Below are positions 18,329-26,012 of a stretch of 64,000 bases of DNA, one piece after another. The stretch lies in the NCBI RefSeq assembly GCF_038397775.1, contig NZ_CP151650.1, positions 1,240,001 through 1,304,000 on the forward strand, read 5' to 3'. The notes below the pieces were generated by a model. That model had not been told where the DNA came from and made no database searches. It was given only the letters and a program-made list of their open reading frames with translations. This DNA is from Pseudomonas sp. RC10 (GTDB lineage Bacteria > Pseudomonadota > Gammaproteobacteria > Pseudomonadales > Pseudomonadaceae). The position numbers and the translations under genes were made by a program. The stretch's first letter is position 1. Every line of letters starts with the position of its first letter.

Positions 18329-19093
18329 ATGAGTGAAGCTATCAAAAAGCCCCTGGGCGCCGAAGGCATGATCCGGATGGAAGGCGTACACAAGTGGTAC
18401 GGCCAGTTCCACGTGCTGAAAGACATCAACCTGAACGTGCGTCAGGGCGAGCGTATCGTGCTGTGCGGCCCGTCGGGCTCGGGCAAGTCGACCACCATTC
18501 GCTGCCTGAACCGTCTGGAAGAGCACCAGCAAGGTCGCATCGTTGTCGATGGCACCGAGCTGACTTCAGACCTGAAGCAGATCGAAACCATTCGCCGCGA
18601 AGTCGGCATGGTGTTCCAGCACTTCAACCTGTTCCCGCACCTGACCATCCTGCAGAACTGCACGTTGGCACCGATGTGGGTCCGCAAGATGCCGAAGAAA
18701 AAGGCCGAAGAAATCGCTATGCACTACCTGGAGCGCGTACGCATTCCAGAGCAGGCGCACAAATACCCGGGCCAACTCTCCGGCGGTCAGCAACAGCGTG
18801 TAGCCATCGCCCGTGCCCTGTGCATGAAGCCAAAAATCATGCTGTTCGATGAGCCGACCTCGGCCCTCGACCCGGAAATGGTGAAAGAGGTATTGGACAC
18901 CATGGTCGGCCTGGCGGAAGAAGGCATGACCATGCTCTGCGTGACCCACGAAATGGGCTTCGCCCGCACCGTGGCCAACCGCGTGATCTTCATGGACAAA
19001 GGCGAAATCGTCGAACAAGCCGCCCCGAACGACTTCTTCGACAACCCGCAAAGCGACCGCACCAAGCTGTTCCTCAGTCAGATCCTGCACTGA
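18329..19093 (+). CDS. aapP: general amino acid ABC transporter ATP-binding protein AapP
   Basis: 254 residues from ATG 18329, preceded by AGGAG; a longer open frame upstream is overlap with aapM. Walker [11 protein letters not shown]-loop [11 protein letters not shown], signature [15 protein letters not shown], Walker [16 protein letters not shown] and H-loop VTHEMG are all intact. The last 119 bases (18975-19093) are repeated exactly at 25845-25963, on the far side of the island that follows. Despite this the gene is full length and should be functional. Confidence 0.96.
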
Positions 19094-19142
19094 GTTAATA
19101 GCTGCGTTCACCAGAAACCCGGGCCCTGTGCCCGGGGTTTTG
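18975..19142 (+). repeat. left copy of 168-bp direct repeat flanking the island (aapP 3' end plus terminator)
   Basis: Identical to 25845-26012 apart from three substitutions, all after the aapP stop (19097, 19109, 19137). Similarity ends abruptly on both sides. It contains the final 39 codons plus stop of aapP and the following terminator hairpin. Confidence 0.95.
19115..19142 (+). terminator. rho-independent terminator of aapJQMP
   Basis: Perfect stem CCCGGGC / GCCCGGG with loop CCTGT, flanked by AAA and a T-run. It lies 22 bases after the aapP stop. Confidence 0.9.
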
Positions 19143-19196: not shown

Positions 19197-20279
19197 TCAC
19201 CAAGGGAACGAAAGCTGAATATCTTCTTGTATGTTTTTCTTGATTTTCACTGAAAGTCCTATCAATCGAACCGCTCTCCCTTCCCTGCGAGTCTCCCACA
19301 ACTTCCTACAAAGCGTGTTGAAGGTGTCACCGCAAAGCCGGTTGGACGATACCTCTGTGGATGAGGTGGAAAAATCAGAAAATTTGAGCTTCACCAAGTT
19401 TTTGATTATTTGATAGCCATCCCCAATTTCGGTAATACGCTCAGCCAAGCCATTAAGCAAATTCTCCAGATGCAACAGGCATTCAGGGAGTGTATAACAG
19501 TCTTGATGAAAAGTTGTCTCAATACCTACCGACCTGATATTACTGCGCTCTTGATGGTCTATCTCGATACCTTGGCATCGCTCCCAAACATAGTATCCGT
19601 GGACACCGAGGTACTGAACCAATGCAGGAATTTTATCTTCTGTGATATCTTTGCAGTACCGGCACCCCAGATTTTCAAGTACTGCATCTGTCTTAGGACC
19701 AACTCCTGGGATTTTCCGAACATCAAGGTCGCGTAAAAAGTCACGAACTGAATTAGGCGATATGACGAACATACCATTGGGTTTATGAACTTCTGAGGCG
19801 ATTTTCGCCAGATATTTCAGCGGCGCCACTCCCGCTGAAGCGGTCAAGTTAAGTTCCCGATGAATTGTGGCCCGGATATCTGCGGCCATATGAGTAGCAG
19901 ACCCGTTGAAATGTTGCTGGCCGGTCACATCTAGAAATGCCTCATCTAAAGACAAAAACTCGACATGATCGGTATAGCGTCTGAAAATGCTATCCAGTTT
20001 TTTCGTGACCTCTTCGTATATTTTAAACCTCACCGGCAACAGCACTAGATCCGGGCATAAGCGATAAGCTTTAGCCGTCGCCAAACCGCTCCGTACGCCA
20101 AAAGCTCTAGCAATGTAATTCGCCGTGCTAATGACTCCCCTCTCAGAAGCTCTGCCGCCTACTGCGACAGGTCGATCGGCCAGATCGGGTGAATCAAGAA
20201 GCTCAACGGAAACAAAAAACGAGTCCATATCTATATGAATGAACTTGCGATGCTTCGCATTTTTTGAAGGTGCTATCAT
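19197..20279 (-). CDS. Y-family DNA polymerase (DinB / Pol IV-like) in island
   Basis: 360 residues, close to DinB length. Catalytic motifs intact: FIHIDMDSFFVSVE (metal Asp near residue 17) and SLDEAFLDVT (Asp-Glu). The helix-hairpin-helix KIPGVGPKTDAVLENLG and little-finger region follow, and the C-terminus QLSFPW resembles a beta-clamp-binding peptide. It should carry out error-prone translesion synthesis. Base composition matches the island, so this is probably an acquired gene and not the core dinB. Last gene of the island operon, 19 bases after the decarboxylase stop and convergent with aapP. Its link to the other island genes is unclear. Confidence 0.92.
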   Translation of the reverse strand: MIAPSKNAKHRKFIHIDMDSFFVSVELLDSPDLADRPVAVGGRASERGVISTANYIARAFGVRSGLATAKAYRLCPDLVLLPVRFKIYEEVTKKLDSIFRRYTDHVEFLSLDEAFLDVTGQQHFNGSATHMAADIRATIHRELNLTASAGVAPLKYLAKIASEVHKPNGMFVISPNSVRDFLRDLDVRKIPGVGPKTDAVLENLGCRYCKDITEDKIPALVQYLGVHGYYVWERCQGIEIDHQERSNIRSVGIETTFHQDCYTLPECLLHLENLLNGLAERITEIGDGYQIIKNLVKLKFSDFSTSSTEVSSNRLCGDTFNTLCRKLWETRREGRAVRLIGLSVKIKKNIQEDIQLSFPW

Positions 20280-20298
20280 TTATGTAGTCATCTATATT

Positions 20299-22443
20299 TC
20301 AGGCTTTTACATCATCTAAAACATTGACGAAGATGGACAGTTCACCATTGATACCTTGAGCGTAATGTATCCCTTGAACATGAGGAGCAAATTCAGGGTA
20401 TAAGTCGATGAGTTTCTGAATTACGATGAGGTAGTCAACCACTACTGCAGTCCAAGTTTCGCCAGGTGCGATGCACATGATCCCCGGAGGATAAGGAATC
20501 ACACCTTCGGCAGCCACGCATCCTAGGGCTTCAGAGAGCGGAACGACTCTTATCTGCCCACGGATTAATGCTTGATTGGCTTCGTATGGAGTTAAATTGG
20601 GAGCTACCGAGGTGTCTAAGCTAAAAAGATCGGATTGAAGCCTCTGGATGTTTGAATCATGGAATAAATTATTAATGTTGTTGCACAATTGCCGCAGTGA
20701 CAGGTCGGAGTAGCGGCCGTCGGAGATCGCAAGGGAAGGAAATATATCTATTATCTGAGTGTCATTGATAAGGTGTAGTTCCAGTGAGGACAGTGCATGT
20801 GCTAATTGATCGAGTACCGTTTCTTTTGAAGCAGGGGAGATTAACAGCGTGAAATTGTAGAAGTCACACTTCTCTGGCGTAAAATTCATTTCTCTAAGGT
20901 ACTGAATCACTACGCTTGCGGGAATCGACATAAAGCCTGCTTGTTCCAACTTCGTGCTAGCGTTTGTGGTGAGGATAATTTTACAAGGGTCGATGAAATG
21001 AAGATCAGCTTCGATAGGTGAAGAACGATTATTGAACGGGGTAAATTCAGTTGGGCGCGACTGAAGCTTGGAGTGGCTTTGCAAGGGATGCGAGCGCCGA
21101 GATTGGCCGCCAGAATAGGTCTTGATTAGCTTGCAACTGTGATCAATTTTTTGTCTGAATTTATTAGCTATACAGACCGCAGAACCCCATATCTCTCGAC
21201 CGTGGCCATTGGCATGAATAGCCGCGTTTACTTCTAATGACATAAACAAAGGATAAAATGGGCTTGTGGACGAGTGGAGCATAAAGGCGCTATCGAACAA
21301 ATGTCGAGAGCAGTAGCGAGACTGGTCCCGGATGTGATGATCTTTTTTATGTATTTGAGAGGTCTGGGAGAGCCCCGCCATTTGCTTATGTACTGACTGG
21401 GTAACAATCACACCTGGTGCATTAGCTGGGAGGTCTCCAATTAGAGGGGATAAATGGGCAAGTTGATCGACAAAGGGCTCGTAACCAAGCCAAGCAGAGT
21501 CAAACAGTACGTAATCACATAGGTGGCCGATCCGTTGTAGTAGAGCAGCTGCGTTCACTACAACACCGTCACACGTAGCGTGCTGCACAATTGCCAAGCG
21601 AAAAGGCCTTTCTTGTTTTGCTATTGTACTGTCGATTCTAGATACCCTGGCTCTGAGCATGTCTTCACTAAGAGCGCCCTTGCGGTAGCCGCCAAGCACA
21701 CCTAACTCGTCGCGATGACTGTCTAAGAACACCGCTCTGGCTCCGCATTGAATCAATGCACCTAGGTATACAGATTTGTGATTGTTTCGGTCCATCAGCA
21801 CGATGTCCCCAGCGCTGAGTAGTGCGCTTGCTACGATTTTGTTCGCCGTGGAAGTACCGTTTAAGACAAAATAGGTCTCGTCAGAGTTGAATACTTCTGC
21901 GGCAAGGTTTTCAGCTTTTCGTATTGGTCCTTGGTGGCTAAGCACATCCCCCAGTTCAGGGGCTGCATGTGGAACATCTACGTTGAAAACGTTTTCTCCC
22001 AACAATTCCTTGAAGCGCAATCCCGCAGGGTGGAGGTCTAGATAATGGCCGCCCTGGTGTCCTGGGCACGCGAAGGTGGGCCTTTGCATAGAAATGAATT
22101 TGGAAACTGCCGCGGTAAACGGAGGAAGCGCTTTTGATTCAAACTGACTGCCTGCATTTAGTATTTTCGCCAATATTGCATCTGACAACGGCGTATTCAA
22201 GATAAATAGTTCATACTTTGCTAGAGGCGTTTGATGGAGTTCTTGCACGCATATGTCTGTTAAAAAAAGGGGTGTTCCCCACTGGTCGATGCAGTTGATC
22301 ACATTGTCGTTGAGTGCATCCTTTTTGTTTAGAACCAATACTGAGGCGACCTCCAAGTGTAAAGATTTTTCAAACTTTATTACCTTCACTTGAGTGTGCG
22401 GATGAAAAATCATTTCTATGCTAGATACAATTTTTATTTGCAT
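20299..22443 (-). CDS. Orn/Lys/Arg decarboxylase family PLP enzyme (island)
   Basis: 714 residues, the size of bacterial inducible ornithine, lysine or arginine decarboxylases. An N-terminal wing domain is followed by the PLP domain: FACPGHQGGHYLD, DETYFVLNGTSTANKIV, LMDRNNHKSVY, DSAWLGYEPF, and the Schiff-base Lys in TQSVHKQMAGLSQTS. The C-terminal domain has IPYPPGIMCIAPGE. All key residues are present, so it is probably active and releases CO2 from a basic amino acid to give a diamine or agmatine. The substrate cannot be read from sequence. Between about residues 440 and 490 there is a Ser/Arg/His-rich stretch unlike the core. The start overlaps the MFS gene end by 23 bases, indicating co-translation. 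Confidence 0.88.
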   Translation of the reverse strand: MQIKIVSSIEMIFHPHTQVKVIKFEKSLHLEVASVLVLNKKDALNDNVINCIDQWGTPLFLTDICVQELHQTPLAKYELFILNTPLSDAILAKILNAGSQFESKALPPFTAAVSKFISMQRPTFACPGHQGGHYLDLHPAGLRFKELLGENVFNVDVPHAAPELGDVLSHQGPIRKAENLAAEVFNSDETYFVLNGTSTANKIVASALLSAGDIVLMDRNNHKSVYLGALIQCGARAVFLDSHRDELGVLGGYRKGALSEDMLRARVSRIDSTIAKQERPFRLAIVQHATCDGVVVNAAALLQRIGHLCDYVLFDSAWLGYEPFVDQLAHLSPLIGDLPANAPGVIVTQSVHKQMAGLSQTSQIHKKDHHIRDQSRYCSRHLFDSAFMLHSSTSPFYPLFMSLEVNAAIHANGHGREIWGSAVCIANKFRQKIDHSCKLIKTYSGGQSRRSHPLQSHSKLQSRPTEFTPFNNRSSPIEADLHFIDPCKIILTTNASTKLEQAGFMSIPASVVIQYLREMNFTPEKCDFYNFTLLISPASKETVLDQLAHALSSLELHLINDTQIIDIFPSLAISDGRYSDLSLRQLCNNINNLFHDSNIQRLQSDLFSLDTSVAPNLTPYEANQALIRGQIRVVPLSEALGCVAAEGVIPYPPGIMCIAPGETWTAVVVDYLIVIQKLIDLYPEFAPHVQGIHYAQGINGELSIFVNVLDDVKA

Positions 22444-23629
22444 TTTTTTTCTTCCAGGCTAAAGGCGAAATGCATAGCAGTGAAGCCATACCGATGAATG
22501 TCGCAGGTCCTGCTATCAGGAACATTAGACTTGCTATGATCCCGGACAGTCCGTCGCCGATGACGGCGGTGAAATAGTAGAGAGAGTAGTTTCTGCCCAC
22601 ATTTTTCGGGTGCGACAGGCGCTGGATGTTTGTGACGATTGCAATGTCAACAAATGCACCAACGAACCCTACGAACGCTAACAGTGCTAAAAAAATATAG
22701 TTGCTAAACGTAAGCGAAATTGCTGTGGCTAAAAATAGCGAGCCATAGATAGACCAGTACCTGACTACCGCATCTGCGGTAGTGGTAGGGTTGAATCGAA
22801 CATATGATAAACTTCCTAACACAGTTCCGGCTGCTAATATCGAAGCAGTGTATCCAACTGCGGCTTCTGATTCAAATGCATCCATGACGGCGGCCGGTAA
22901 AATAAATCGTATCAAGGATGTGGCAAATAAGGCGCACAATGTTGTGCAAAAAATGACTTTAAATAAAGGTTTGTTCATGTGTTTAATGCTTTGGAGTCCA
23001 TTAATCGCATCTTTTAAGATGTATTTAAAGCTAAAGCTACCCATTTCCTTTCTGGTAGAAGATTCCAGTGTAAGTATGTATAGCGTAGACATAAGCGAGC
23101 TAATTGAAAAAAATGCAAAGGCGTGAAGGGGGGTGAACATGATTGTGATTATTGAAAATATCAGTGGTCCGGCGATTGACGCGCCATCTTCGATAACTTG
23201 TAACCGGCTATTGACTAAAGTTAAGCTCTCAGAATCTATAGTTTCTGGAAAAAATGCTCGAAAAGAAGGTGTGTGAAGACAGTCCAGAGCGGTCAAGCAC
23301 ATAGCAGCAATTGCAATCGCTTGAATACTTAGGCTGGAGTATATTCCAACTGAACACAATGATATGGCTACTGTGAGTTTTAGTAGGTCTACGGTGATTA
23401 ATGTGTATTTCTTGTCAGCGTAGTCTGCTAACCATCCTCCCACGGGTGAGAAGAGTGCGCTGGGCATGAAGCGAAGAAAATAAATCAGGCCTACGTCGAG
23501 TAAATTTCCCGTAACGAGTGACACCACCGTCACAGCAAAAGCTATCTCAAATGTAAACTCTCCGACTTTCGTAAAAAAAAAAGAATATGAAAGTTTTTGA
23601 ATTTGATGGTGTGATCGCGCGGTTTTCAT
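22421..23629 (-). CDS. MFS transporter, drug-efflux-like (island)
   Basis: 402 residues with about 12 hydrophobic spans. Motif A-like GGWLADYADKK in the loop after the second span is typical of major facilitator proteins of the macrolide/multidrug efflux type. An inner-membrane antiporter is expected. It lies between the radical SAM gene (18-base gap) and the decarboxylase gene (overlap), so it is the obvious candidate exporter of the island product or a self-resistance pump. The start at 23629 has a weak ribosome site. Confidence 0.88.
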   Translation of the reverse strand: MKTARSHHQIQKLSYSFFFTKVGEFTFEIAFAVTVVSLVTGNLLDVGLIYFLRFMPSALFSPVGGWLADYADKKYTLITVDLLKLTVAISLCSVGIYSSLSIQAIAIAAMCLTALDCLHTPSFRAFFPETIDSESLTLVNSRLQVIEDGASIAGPLIFSIITIMFTPLHAFAFFSISSLMSTLYILTLESSTRKEMGSFSFKYILKDAINGLQSIKHMNKPLFKVIFCTTLCALFATSLIRFILPAAVMDAFESEAAVGYTASILAAGTVLGSLSYVRFNPTTTADAVVRYWSIYGSLFLATAISLTFSNYIFLALLAFVGFVGAFVDIAIVTNIQRLSHPKNVGRNYSLYYFTAVIGDGLSGIIASLMFLIAGPATFIGMASLLCISPLAWKKKNANKNCI

Positions 23630-23647
23630 ATTTTAGTTAATCCAGAG

Positions 23648-25054
23648 CTATACAGTCGAATAGATAATTTCATCTTTTGTAATATCTCTTCCTTTGGCGC
23701 TGAGCTTCTCAAATACTAATTTTTTTAGAATGTTTTGCTCGCTTTGAGGGCATAAGTAGAACATGATATTGCTATACCATAGCCAGCCCAGCTTGGTTAA
23801 CTCATATGTCTTTTCCGTTTCGCATATTAGACCTGCTCTGATCATCTCTTCCAGCTTAGTAAACAAGCCGCTGGGAATATCACTAAACGCGATTTTGTCT
23901 TTTTCTATTTCTCCATGGTAAGGAAGCCTTAGTACAATAGGTTTTACTAGATCAAGAACAGATGCATGTTGGCTAACATTGCATTCGTATATGCCAGAAG
24001 TCATTTTAATAGTGTATTGCTCTCTGAGAGATGTATTAGTGATGACATTCTCAGCAAGGGACGAAATTCCGCCGACACCAAAACCTAATACATCATGATC
24101 AGCGTAGCCGTAAACGTGCTCGTGATAGATAAATGAGTAGTTACTAGCGAACAGTTTTTCCCTTGACAGTCTCTGGCGGATATAACCGTGGCCATTATAA
24201 GGCAAATAGCCTTTCTGACGCATGTGTTCATCGATCATAAGCCTCATGTTCAACTTTCGCATTGCTGGGAAAATTTCACTTGTATGCTGTTTGATTTGTC
24301 TGTGAAGTTTAAGCGATGTTACGACATTGTTGATGGGGTAGATATCGATGTTCGTGACGCCTAGGTCAACGGCTTTGTCAATGTCAGTTAAGGTTTGCGA
24401 TTCATTGCTTCCATTCATTCCATAGAGAATATCGCAGAGGACATGCTGGAAAGAGGATACCAGTGTTTCTGCTGCACGTTCTATTTGAGTAATATCTTGA
24501 GAGAGATTGAATAGTTTTCTCCAGGTAGGGTCTATCGTTTGCAGTCCAAATCGGGCATGGGTAACTCCGATGTCGGCTAGAGCTCTAGTGCGCTCCTCCG
24601 AGACACTCGTGATGTGAAATTCGAACGAAAATTCTTCAACATTAGACATGTCGAAATAACGGTGTAGTGCCTCTCCAATATCATTGATGTTTCGGGGGGA
24701 AAGCAAGGAGGGCGTTCCACCACCAAAAAAGATTGCACGAACTGGAACCTTTTTTAGGTCCATAACTCGCGATTTGTATTCGATCTCTTTGATCAACGCT
24801 TGCGTATATCTATCTATTTCCTCACTATTTTTGTAGAATCCTCGAGTAAACGGGCAGAATGAGCATATCGCTTCGCAAAATGGGATGTGAAAATACAAAG
24901 CTCGAGACGTTGCACTGTTATTTGCAGTTTCGAAGACTTGCGATAGTTGTGTACGGTTGGGACGAAATACTTCGTGACTTTGAGAGGGGAAAAAGAAATT
25001 ATAGAGTGGAAATTGATAATCGAATTTTACTAGTCCGTTATTAAGTATTTTCAC
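23648..25054 (-). CDS. HemN-like radical SAM enzyme (island)
   Basis: 468 residues. The radical SAM cluster motif is CEAICSFC (CX3CX2C) within YFHIPFCEAICSFCPF, as in HemN/HemW. FFGGGTPSLLS (SAM-binding GGGTP) and RFGLQTIDPTWRKLFN follow, and the C-terminal part has HemN-domain features (GFGVGGISSL and a winged-helix-like KLEEMIRAGLI). HemN relatives include coproporphyrinogen dehydrogenase, the haem chaperone HemW and class C radical SAM methylases. The context here (no haem genes, adjacent SAM decarboxylase) argues against a haem role. The start is GTG at 25054, overlapping the speD-like gene end by 14 bases. Substrate unknown. Confidence 0.88.
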   Translation of the reverse strand: MKILNNGLVKFDYQFPLYNFFFPSQSHEVFRPNRTQLSQVFETANNSATSRALYFHIPFCEAICSFCPFTRGFYKNSEEIDRYTQALIKEIEYKSRVMDLKKVPVRAIFFGGGTPSLLSPRNINDIGEALHRYFDMSNVEEFSFEFHITSVSEERTRALADIGVTHARFGLQTIDPTWRKLFNLSQDITQIERAAETLVSSFQHVLCDILYGMNGSNESQTLTDIDKAVDLGVTNIDIYPINNVVTSLKLHRQIKQHTSEIFPAMRKLNMRLMIDEHMRQKGYLPYNGHGYIRQRLSREKLFASNYSFIYHEHVYGYADHDVLGFGVGGISSLAENVITNTSLREQYTIKMTSGIYECNVSQHASVLDLVKPIVLRLPYHGEIEKDKIAFSDIPSGLFTKLEEMIRAGLICETEKTYELTKLGWLWYSNIMFYLCPQSEQNILKKLVFEKLSAKGRDITKDEIIYSTV

Positions 25055-25424
25055 GATCTAAGCTCGCTAGTGATATTTCGCTTCCGCGTACAAGTGTGCG
25101 CATTGCTATGCGTATTTCGTTACCGAAGAATATTTTTAGCTCTTCCTTCAGTCTCAATTTCTTTGTGCCGCAGGTGTATACGTCTACGCTGATATAGCAA
25201 TTTTCTGGGTAGGTGTGGTAAGACAGGTGCGACTCAGATAGTAAATAAAGACCTGTAACTCCCTCGCCATTCGAGATGAATTTGTGCGTCAAGTGATTGA
25301 TGACGTTGAAGCTAGAGCGCTCCAGGGTGTTTAAAAAGAAATCGTGTAGTGCGTGTGCGTTCTTTAGCAAAGCTGCGTCTGCGCCGACTATGTCTAAAAT
25401 TGTATGATTTCCCAAGTCATCCAT
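25041..25424 (-). CDS. S-adenosylmethionine decarboxylase proenzyme (SpeD-like, island)
   Basis: 127 residues from ATG 25424 (MDDLGNHTILDIVG), which has GGAGGAAGGAG upstream; this length and N-terminus match class 1b bacterial AdoMet decarboxylases. The self-cleavage motif LLSESHLSYHTYPE holds the Glu-Ser bond that yields the pyruvoyl group. The His and the VYTCG Cys of the family are present. It should make decarboxylated SAM, normally the aminopropyl donor for spermidine synthase, but no speE lies nearby. The open frame extends upstream to 25520, through a hairpin and into the 3' end of the preceding small ORF; that extension is unlike the family. Confidence 0.9.
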   Translation of the reverse strand: MDDLGNHTILDIVGADAALLKNAHALHDFFLNTLERSSFNVINHLTHKFISNGEGVTGLYLLSESHLSYHTYPENCYISVDVYTCGTKKLRLKEELKIFFGNEIRIAMRTLVRGSEISLASLDRENT

Positions 25425-25464
25425 GGTGATTGCTGCTCCTTCCTCCAGTGAAGCTATACTTTTT

Positions 25465-25494
25465 AGAAGGGGAAGGCGTCGACCTTCCCCTTCT
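25465..25494 (-). promoter_or_regulatory. perfect 12-bp hairpin between the small ORF and the speD-like gene
   Basis: Arms AGAAGGGGAAGG (25465-25476) and CCTTCCCCTTCT (25483-25494) are fully complementary around a 6-base loop. On the minus strand it starts 9 bases after the small-ORF stop and is followed by AAAAAG, not a T-run, so it is not a classical terminator. It could stabilise the upstream mRNA segment or attenuate expression of the enzymes relative to the peptide. Confidence 0.75.
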
Positions 25495-25503
25495 GCTTTC
25501 AAA

Positions 25504-25575
25504 TCACCACAGGCATACACCTTTGGTTGTTACCCCGATTACATCAGTTTCGAACAAATCAATAGCAGATTTCAT
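25504..25575 (-). CDS. 23-residue peptide ORF, possible peptide precursor or leader peptide
   Basis: ATG at 25575 is preceded by AAAAGGAAATACAT, a good ribosome site. The 23 codons start MKSAIDLFET and end TTKGVCLW before a TGA stop. There is one Cys and a C-terminal Trp, and no hydrophobic signal. It is the first gene of the island operon, followed by the perfect hairpin and then the speD-like, radical SAM and exporter genes. The layout resembles peptide-precursor genes at the head of modification operons (pqqA is a familiar example). It could instead be a regulatory leader peptide of the SAM decarboxylase gene. I know of no family with this sequence. Codons and spacing look real, but translation is unproven. 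Confidence 0.6.
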   Translation of the reverse strand: MKSAIDLFETDVIGVTTKGVCLW

Positions 25576-25618: not shown

Positions 25619-25844
25619 TGAGATAAGTATTAGCATTTCGAAATTGCTTTTGAACATCAGCAAATGTAAACCGATTTTTCCGCGCTGCGAATCATTGCTT
25701 ATTATGCGTACAGTTTTTTAGTAAAACTCATTTGAAAGCAGATGATTGCAGTCCTTAGCGCGTAAGCGATCTTAAACTCACTTTCTGAATCCATTACCGC
25801 GTGCCTAACGTTCGCTTTGTGTTCTTTGAGTAAGCTATCTTTGC

Positions 25845-25963
25845 CCAACCGCGTGATCTTCATGGACAAAGGCGAAATCGTCGAACAAGCCGCCCCGAAC
25901 GACTTCTTCGACAACCCGCAAAGCGACCGCACCAAGCTGTTCCTCAGTCAGATCCTGCACTGA
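25845..25963 (+). pseudogene. aapP 3' fragment (final 39 codons plus stop)
   Basis: Exact copy of the aapP end, starting inside the codons for [10 protein letters not shown] and keeping the stop. It has no start or ribosome site and cannot encode a transporter part. It marks the right boundary of the island. Confidence 0.93.
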
Positions 25964-25984
25964 GTTGATAGCTGCGTTAACCAG

Positions 25985-26012
25985 AAACCCGGGCCCTGTG
26001 CCCGGGTTTTTG
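25985..26012 (+). terminator. duplicated aap terminator
   Basis: CCCGGGC / GCCCGGG stem followed by six T. With the aapP fragment before it, it has no obvious transcript to stop. Confidence 0.8.

Follow-up and report, generated by a model that had tools for sequence, protein, structure and literature searches.

A stretch of 64,000 nucleotides from Pseudomonas sp. RC10 (contig NZ_CP151650.1, positions 1,240,001 to 1,304,000 of the forward strand; hereafter, the window) carries six adjacent open reading frames (ORFs) on its minus strand, between positions 19197 and 25575. From 5' to 3', they encode a 23-residue peptide, a homologue of the S-adenosylmethionine (SAM) decarboxylase SpeD, a HemN-family radical SAM enzyme, a predicted exporter of the major facilitator superfamily (MFS), a pyridoxal phosphate (PLP) decarboxylase of the OKR family and a DinB-type Y-family DNA polymerase (Table 1). 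Here, we propose that this locus makes a ribosomally synthesized and post-translationally modified peptide (RiPP) from the small ORF.

A sequence-only reading of the window had described these frames as one operon in an AT-rich island, with enzymes that keep their catalytic residues, and our data bear it out. All six frames are present, the overlaps between speD and the radical SAM gene (14 bases) and between the MFS and decarboxylase genes (23 bases) are exact, and the GC content is 41-47% in the region against ~59% outside. The CX3CX2C motif, the Ser, His and Cys of SpeD and the SVHKQ stretch of the decarboxylase are kept, as are, judged by eye in the translation, the Asp and Glu of DinB (in DMDSFF and SLDEAF). 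The Pfam models IMS, OKR_DC_1, MFS, Radical_SAM and AdoMet_dc each match a window protein above cut-off. We placed the start of speD at the ATG at 25424, which has a strong Shine-Dalgarno sequence; a longer ORF (to 25520) begins within the leader region. The earlier description had mentioned neither the perfect 12-bp inverted repeat that lies between the small ORF and speD nor the direct repeat of 171 bp that flanks the island. An Rfam search of the locus gave no match above the gathering score, and promoter and terminator scans gave results at chance level.

Constant and variable genes of the cluster

We have defined as close clusters the nine with at least 65% identity in the radical SAM protein (the window, L021, L022, L025 and L113-L117), which comprise the window, seven genomes of the same genus and Pseudomonas gingeri. 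All nine show the gene order 23-aa ORF, speD, radical SAM, MFS, OKR decarboxylase and dinB (the five proteins detected by tblastn). This co-occurrence supports a single pathway, an idea that is strengthened for the peptide and radical SAM core: in a comparison of gene neighbourhoods across genomes the homologues do occur together elsewhere, and outside the genus, too, the small ORF accompanies the radical SAM gene.

A HemN-like match was found in all of 194 related genomes, with clear radical SAM relatives in four others only (78, 67, 45 and 34% identity). In a sample of the order, 19 of 341 genomes passed E 1e-50; three of them belong to the family (the window's own, G165 and G1350; E <1e-190), and the other 16 (E 1e-55 to 1e-50) were taken, without individual checks, as generic HemN-like proteins. 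The contigs of 84,980 species added P. gingeri, Trinickia and Actinocrispum among the matches listed, further members being possible, and plasmid records added Xenorhabdus, Klebsiella (two records), Glaesserella, Alicyclobacillus and Cytobacillus.

Across 20 loci with a radical SAM gene (19 including the window, plus L159), SpeD is present in 15, relic-like in one (L137) and absent from the fetched stretch in four. The OKR decarboxylase occurs in 11, a cytochrome P450 in two (L135 and L136; the Klebsiella one is annotated radical SAM-P450-transposase-MFS) and an MFS gene in 18 (15 by tblastn, three by Pfam). The constant pair is the tiny peptide and the radical SAM enzyme, usually with the MFS protein, and SpeD, OKR decarboxylase, P450 and DinB vary between clades. 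Loss of the small ORF or of the SpeD/radical SAM pairing in relatives had been named as what would undo the single-pathway idea. The link between small ORF and radical SAM gene holds beyond the genus, but the pairing with SpeD is lost in L024, L138, L118 and L135; because of this loss in remote relatives, SpeD is a clade-specific addition and not part of the core.

Two remote loci present further particularities. The radical SAM relative of L118 (G645; L118:1907-3259) has one in-frame TAG and lies after an ORF resembling, by eye, a cobalamin-type radical SAM protein; this locus was excluded from alignments and tables, and its 166/168 motif was read by eye only. In Actinocrispum wychmicini (L027:8605-10365), speD is directly upstream of a 37%-identical radical SAM gene, the tiny Trp ORF was not found, and ATP-grasp-like ORFs (by eye) stand on either side of the pair.

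Table 1. Features of the locus, with positions in the window
Feature	Position	Strand	Basis or remarks
Putative 23-aa precursor peptide gene, MKSAIDLFETDVIGVTTKGVCLW	25504..25575 (stop included)	-	Shine-Dalgarno AAAAGG; orthologues in the 8 other close clusters
12-bp perfect inverted repeat (hairpin), interval between precursor gene and speD	25465..25494	-	Read from the sequence
speD-like, class 1b S-adenosylmethionine decarboxylase homologue, 127 aa	25041..25424	-	AdoMet_dc, TIGR03330
HemN-family radical SAM enzyme, 468 aa, putative Trp-modifying RiPP enzyme	23648..25054	-	Pfam Radical_SAM
Predicted MFS exporter (MFS_3/MFS_1)	22421..23629	-	Pfam, NCBIfam
OKR (ornithine-type) PLP decarboxylase, 714 aa	20299..22443	-	OKR_DC_1; closest solved structures are ornithine decarboxylases
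DinB-type Y-family DNA polymerase, 360 aa, operon-specific clade	19197..20279	-	Pfam IMS, NF002677, tree
Left direct repeat: intact aapP 3' end and its terminator	18972..19142	+	Sequence comparison
Right direct repeat: partial copy of the aapP 3' end, 98% identical	25842..26012	+	Sequence comparison

The tryptophan-terminal small ORF

Among the nine close clusters (36 pairs, uncorrected for saturation), the proportions of nonsynonymous and synonymous differences in the small ORF are 0.10 (pN) and 0.61 (pS), a pN/pS of 0.16. This indicates selection on the amino acid sequence and hence a real gene, whose translation we infer from that selection. We surveyed tiny ORFs at 21 loci, namely 19 loci, L159 and L186 (a Klebsiella speD locus with no radical SAM gene in the fetched stretch). 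A Trp-terminal ORF precedes 17 of them: all nine close clusters and eight of the 12 remote loci. The P. gingeri ORF fell outside the Shine-Dalgarno filter of the first survey and was recovered in the selection analysis. As a control, a similar, not identical, ORF filter was applied upstream of 1,189 other genes from 149 sources and gave eight such ORFs, or four after removal of three family loci and one duplicate.

The putative precursor of the close clusters is MKSAIELFKTDVTGVTTKGVCMW and variants. Its remote Trp-terminal counterparts are MESAMELFEVDINDCDLQGLCMW (Xenorhabdus), MESAIELFVTESSAENYDFNSVAW (Klebsiella), MENAIELFVSRKNEEHYDFNNVAW (Glaesserella), MENAKILFVKTTVKDKKFATVVW (G1350), MNAKSAKGFFKKNQQATSRVKEFGTRACW (G070), MEEVSRYFEAPAVAPMPVKMGGW (Trinickia), MFREFAW (G165) and MRDIVWDIVW (Alicyclobacillus). 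Precursor lengths range from 7 to 29 residues, and two precursors are internally tandem-repeated. The start Met and the last Trp are the only residues common to all 17 Trp-terminal loci (by eye); close to the N terminus, [SN]A...F recurs in several remote relatives, and the middle part diverges. In Glaesserella, an annotated 76-aa hypothetical protein has the 24 residues of MENAIELFVSRKNEEHYDFNNVAW as its C-terminal end, and in L135 the 5' side has been exchanged for foreign sequence.

A hairpin follows the small ORF in all 17 loci folded, with z scores against mononucleotide shuffles below -2 in 15 of them (-4.4 in the window). The Trp codon and the stop lie directly 5' of the hairpin in 16 of the 17; the exception is Cytobacillus, whose ORF ends in Leu. 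Such an arrangement would suit a regulatory leader peptide, on whose terminal Trp codon the ribosome would stall and whose hairpin would help to tune a polyamine-type operon. TnaC and SpeFL are leader peptides of this stalling type, and in the window the CCTTCC of the hairpin could pair, by eye, with the speD Shine-Dalgarno sequence GGAGGAAGG. We hold this explanation to be improbable, however, and keep it as a competing one. The peptide tracks the radical SAM gene and not the polyamine genes: the L024 and L138 clusters have it, and neither speD nor the decarboxylase turned up in them. Besides, the N-terminal S/N-A-x-x-x-F recurs in several genera over a diverging middle part, two precursors are tandem repeats and one has only 7 residues. 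Because the peptide has the radical SAM gene as its constant partner and persists with it in L024 and L138, we prefer a RiPP precursor over a leader peptide. A precursor gene conserved beside a candidate modifying enzyme, as expected of a RiPP, is what the Trp-terminal ORF (17 of 21 loci, pN/pS 0.16) provides. Judging from sequence conservation, the core of the system is probably that of a RiPP, a Trp-terminal mini-precursor together with a HemN-fold, class-C-like enzyme that would act at the Trp.

The radical SAM enzyme, SpeD and the decarboxylase

All 12 family rows of our alignment have the CX3CX2C motif, and the predicted model of the radical SAM enzyme has a HemN-type fold; both are features of class C radical SAM methylases, the fold being that of the model. 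Y54 and D208 of the two-SAM site are kept in 19 of 19 sequences. Three other positions, those of Arg153 and Ser225 in NocN and of Arg184 in HemN, have changed. The protein has 17 NCBIfam matches and passes the cut-off of none; TIGR00538 (HemN), for instance, gives 126 bits against a cut-off of 325. The best match is TIGR04107 (HutW), and the Xenorhabdus copy is annotated as hutW, so one could argue that the enzyme is a ChuW/HutW haem-degrading protein in an iron-acquisition operon. We rejected this candidate, which we regard as extremely improbable: the match reaches 161 bits against a cut-off of 400, the operon has no haem-uptake gene, and positions 166, 168, 179, 184, 237, 287 and 289 of the enzyme carry changes peculiar to the family or to a clade.

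Among known systems, NosN and NocN (nosiheptide and nocathiacin; class C) share with the operon enzyme the HemN family, the CX3CX2C motif and, from the two-SAM site, a Tyr and an Asp that do not vary, and they act on an indole in a RiPP according to the accessible part of PMC12871812. The operon differs from them in having no thiopeptide machinery, an encoded 7-29-aa Trp peptide as putative substrate, SpeD alongside, and changes at positions 166, 184 and 237. With HemN, the oxygen-independent coproporphyrinogen III oxidase, the enzyme shares 19% identity, and the Arg184 of HemN is not kept. NocN was not among the 50 matches listed in that comparison, which speaks neither for nor against a relationship.

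SpeD passes the TIGR03330 cut-off (80.2 against 75.65 bits) and keeps F49, which we take to be the sulfonium-binding residue. The positions aligned to T. maritima S63, H68 and C83, whose roles in the active site are described in the available portion of PMC10407285, are invariant in 8 of 8 rows. In the same source, class 1b SpeD homologues are reported to have been neofunctionalized to ornithine/arginine decarboxylases, outside the normal SpeD/SpeE pair; here, instead, SpeD stands beside a radical SAM gene, with a separate PLP decarboxylase in 11 of the 20 loci. The operon SpeD is the sole class 1b SpeD found in the window genome at E up to 0.001, and ten of 11 radical SAM-positive genomes have a class 1b match (the exception is G165). 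Screening of 229 genus genomes gave SpeD matches in seven, five of them radical SAM-positive (E 2e-82 to 1e-10).

In the SpeD-bearing clade, the Arg through which NocN touches its second SAM has given way to another residue, which hints at a use of decarboxylated SAM and does not prove it. We give even chances to its use anywhere in the pathway. The earlier suggestion that the radical SAM enzyme or a hidden transferase uses decarboxylated SAM stays plausible, without proof. As to the OKR decarboxylase, it shares the SVHKQ stretch with ornithine decarboxylase (1c4k/1ord), its best match of solved structure, and falls below the cut-offs of TIGR04301 SpeF (638.6 against 1310 bits) and of the NF010092 ornithine decarboxylase subfamily (678.2 against 794 bits). 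Because both are missed, we file it as a member of the OKR family, ornithine-type only.

Other SpeD-like proteins were seen in different settings. An Alicyclobacillus plasmid (L137:9519-9917) encodes a protein of 132 aa that matches AdoMet_dc below the threshold (E 0.08) and lacks the Glu-Ser cleavage motif, possibly a SpeD turned non-catalytic partner. On a Deefgea piscis plasmid (L187:6161-8390), speD lies beside an iron-containing redox enzyme and a DUF3419 protein, presumably a BtaA-like 3-amino-3-carboxypropyl transferase, which makes another non-polyamine setting for SpeD. In G051 (L196:6598-7913), a weak SpeD match is directly 5' of a spermidine synthase-like ORF, near an amidinotransferase-like ORF (both by eye).

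Proposed pathway, competing explanations and mobility

On balance, we favour the complete scheme that follows, in which a RiPP gene cluster belonging to a family not described before has moved horizontally. The 23-aa peptide would be translated, with its N-terminal S-A-I-x-L-F as recognition sequence (leader) and its C-terminal ...VC(L/M)W as core, as conservation suggests, and the hairpin would permit a surplus of peptide over the enzymes. The HemN-fold enzyme, expected from part of its conserved residues to bind two SAM, would attack the Trp indole via a SAM-derived methylene radical, as its class C homologues attack sp2 carbons. SpeD would provide decarboxylated SAM, which would either serve the radical enzyme directly as its second SAM or donate an aminopropyl group, and the OKR decarboxylase would provide putrescine or decarboxylate a later intermediate. 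A host protease would release the product and the MFS protein would export it. The product or an intermediate would be electrophilic and damage DNA, and the operon DinB would let the producer copy past the adducts. SpeD, OKR decarboxylase, P450 and DinB are best read as decorating the RiPP core in some clades only. Of the product proposed by the sequence-only reading, peptide or polyamine-based, we retain the peptide-derived option as the best reading.

A more specific chemistry, in which decarboxylated SAM from SpeD serves as the second SAM and its aminopropyl-adenosyl sulfonium is joined via the methyl carbon to the Trp indole, to give an amine-tailed indolyl-methyl sulfonium able to bind and alkylate DNA, with DinB as self-resistance, seems improbable to us, and this estimate covers jointly the variant in which the product is an aminopropyl or putrescine adduct derived from that sulfonium. 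We know of no radical SAM reaction on decarboxylated SAM and found none in a literature search, so this one would be the first. Further literature searches, with most subscription papers out of reach, found no Y-family polymerase used for producer self-resistance, which would also be a first, and no paper on this cluster type.

The polymerase at the operon end had been taken for a possible passenger. We no longer hold this view, because the order including dinB is kept in all nine close clusters. The protein passes DNA polymerase IV NF002677 (404 against 256 bits), and the operon DinBs are 59-72% identical to that of the window, compared with 42-44% for the chromosomal DinBs (found in eight of nine genomes searched). 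In the tree they form a separate clade (100/100), closer to E. coli DinB than to their hosts' own. DNA damage by the product with self-protection by DinB is, by analogy, a tentative idea to which we give somewhat less than an even chance. A DNA-damaging product is a reasonable, if unproven, reading, as HemN-like enzymes are known from the pathways of the DNA alkylators yatakemycin and CC-1065 (PMC9062424 and PMC6050322, in their accessible parts). Cluster-encoded self-resistance by DNA repair is also known, in the form of DNA glycosylases, with UvrA-like proteins also named, in the text available of PMC9040887, which further reports DinB hydrolases as neighbours of genotoxin resistance genes. 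Compared with the yatakemycin/CC-1065 and azinomycin/hedamycin clusters, the operon has a Y-family polymerase as putative self-resistance gene and no polyketide or non-ribosomal peptide synthetase genes. In Cytobacillus, a DinB_2 gene after the MFS gene takes the place of DinB. The DinB_2 superfamily includes thiol transferases. A distamycin cluster reportedly has three putative DNA replication/repair resistance genes.

Several observations weigh against the proposed pathway. The family is rare, with nine of 398 genomes positive in the genus profile search, two of 369 in the class sample and one of 398 in the phylum sample, the window's own included in each. No Trp-terminal ORF was found in four of the 12 remote loci (none in L027, L118 and L135, a Leu-ended one in L138), the Leu-ended precursor of Cytobacillus, MKKEWVALKNEWVAL, having two internal Trp repeats. 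RiPP recognition element (PqqD-like), protease and ligase families had no match among the five operon proteins (Pfam, NCBIfam); many RiPP classes have no recognition element. All 19 sequences have lost the usual SAM-I Arg (HemN R184), and the SAM sites are remodelled. Regarding SpeD, it was not found in the fetched stretch of the four loci named above, its Alicyclobacillus relic is degenerate, and two genus genomes with SpeD matches (G051, 5e-9; G061, 4e-9) do not have this radical SAM protein. L135 and L137 carry His166 although SpeD is not found or degenerate there; since the His166 change and SpeD presence map to one branch (in a tree with long-branch warnings), they are one event and count once. 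The replacement of Ser168 by Arg in this clade may shift the positive charge and not remove it. Finally, the 44%-identical G070 cluster has no DinB, nor have the remote clusters except that of Xenorhabdus, where a divergent dinB ~0.6 kb from the cluster on pXT141 is not resolved from E. coli chromosomal DinB.

Two further explanations accept the RiPP core. The peptide could be a mere scaffold, whose C-terminal Trp is remodelled, cleaved and finished as a small molecule, as in the pearlins (BhaA/BhaC1, ammosamide), where a tiny peptide likewise offers a C-terminal Trp to tailoring enzymes. The conservation of the last Trp, alone with the start Met, would agree with this, as would the small exporter and a decarboxylase that could act on the freed amino acid, and BhaC1 oxidizes a Trp at the C terminus and depends for recognition on a 20-aa peptide (accessible text of PMC9850906). 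This explanation overlaps ours and is rather unlikely as it stands. The peptide amino-acyl tRNA ligase (PEARL) family has no match among the five operon proteins (the rest of the genome was not looked at), the Trp is genetically encoded here and not ligated, a radical SAM enzyme replaces the flavoenzyme, and the Cytobacillus precursor is not Trp-ended. Alternatively, SpeD and the decarboxylase would only enlarge the host polyamine pool, DinB being an unrelated stress or mobile-element gene. Both spermidine synthase substrates would indeed be produced by SpeD and an ornithine-type decarboxylase, the operon has no aminopropyl transferase, and Glaesserella has SpeD without the decarboxylase. We give this a low probability nonetheless, as speD is directly 5' of the radical SAM gene in nine close clusters (with the overlap in the window), no second class 1b SpeD was found in the window genome and DinB is kept in all nine.

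If the pathway we favour is right, these clusters are a compact, plasmid-mobile RiPP family with precursors down to 7 residues that offer Trp to a HemN-family enzyme. The SpeD/radical SAM adjacency makes decarboxylated SAM as a radical SAM co-substrate a directly testable question. Should DinB protect the producer, the presence of a Y-family polymerase in a small operon could serve as a mining marker for new genotoxic natural products, as glycosylases already do (PMC9040887).

The island is bracketed by the 171-bp repeat and located between an intact gene, which we take to be aapP, and a copy of its tail, and no integrase-like gene was seen inside. This suggests gain by recombination and possible precise loss. 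The search for an empty site gave none that could be cleanly read: four relatives matched on the aapP side, and the right flank of the window past the repeat did not follow within the 1.5 kb fetched. A search of 4 kb around the other eight close clusters gave no window-like flank repeats, and none of these clusters has the window's flanks. The operon seems to have moved horizontally, and its relatives are partly plasmid-borne. A phage collection gave only four records with partial 25% matches, viral contigs gave 15 weak HemN-like matches (20-29%), and E. coli genomes gave matches none of which covers 80% of the Klebsiella query, the 20 listed, beside 2,236 further records, being its ISL3 transposase. 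On Klebsiella pneumoniae plasmids, the cluster is apparently split by insertion sequences (L186:7861-8369 and L135:6141-11143), one plasmid retaining the precursor and speD and another the radical SAM, P450 and MFS genes.

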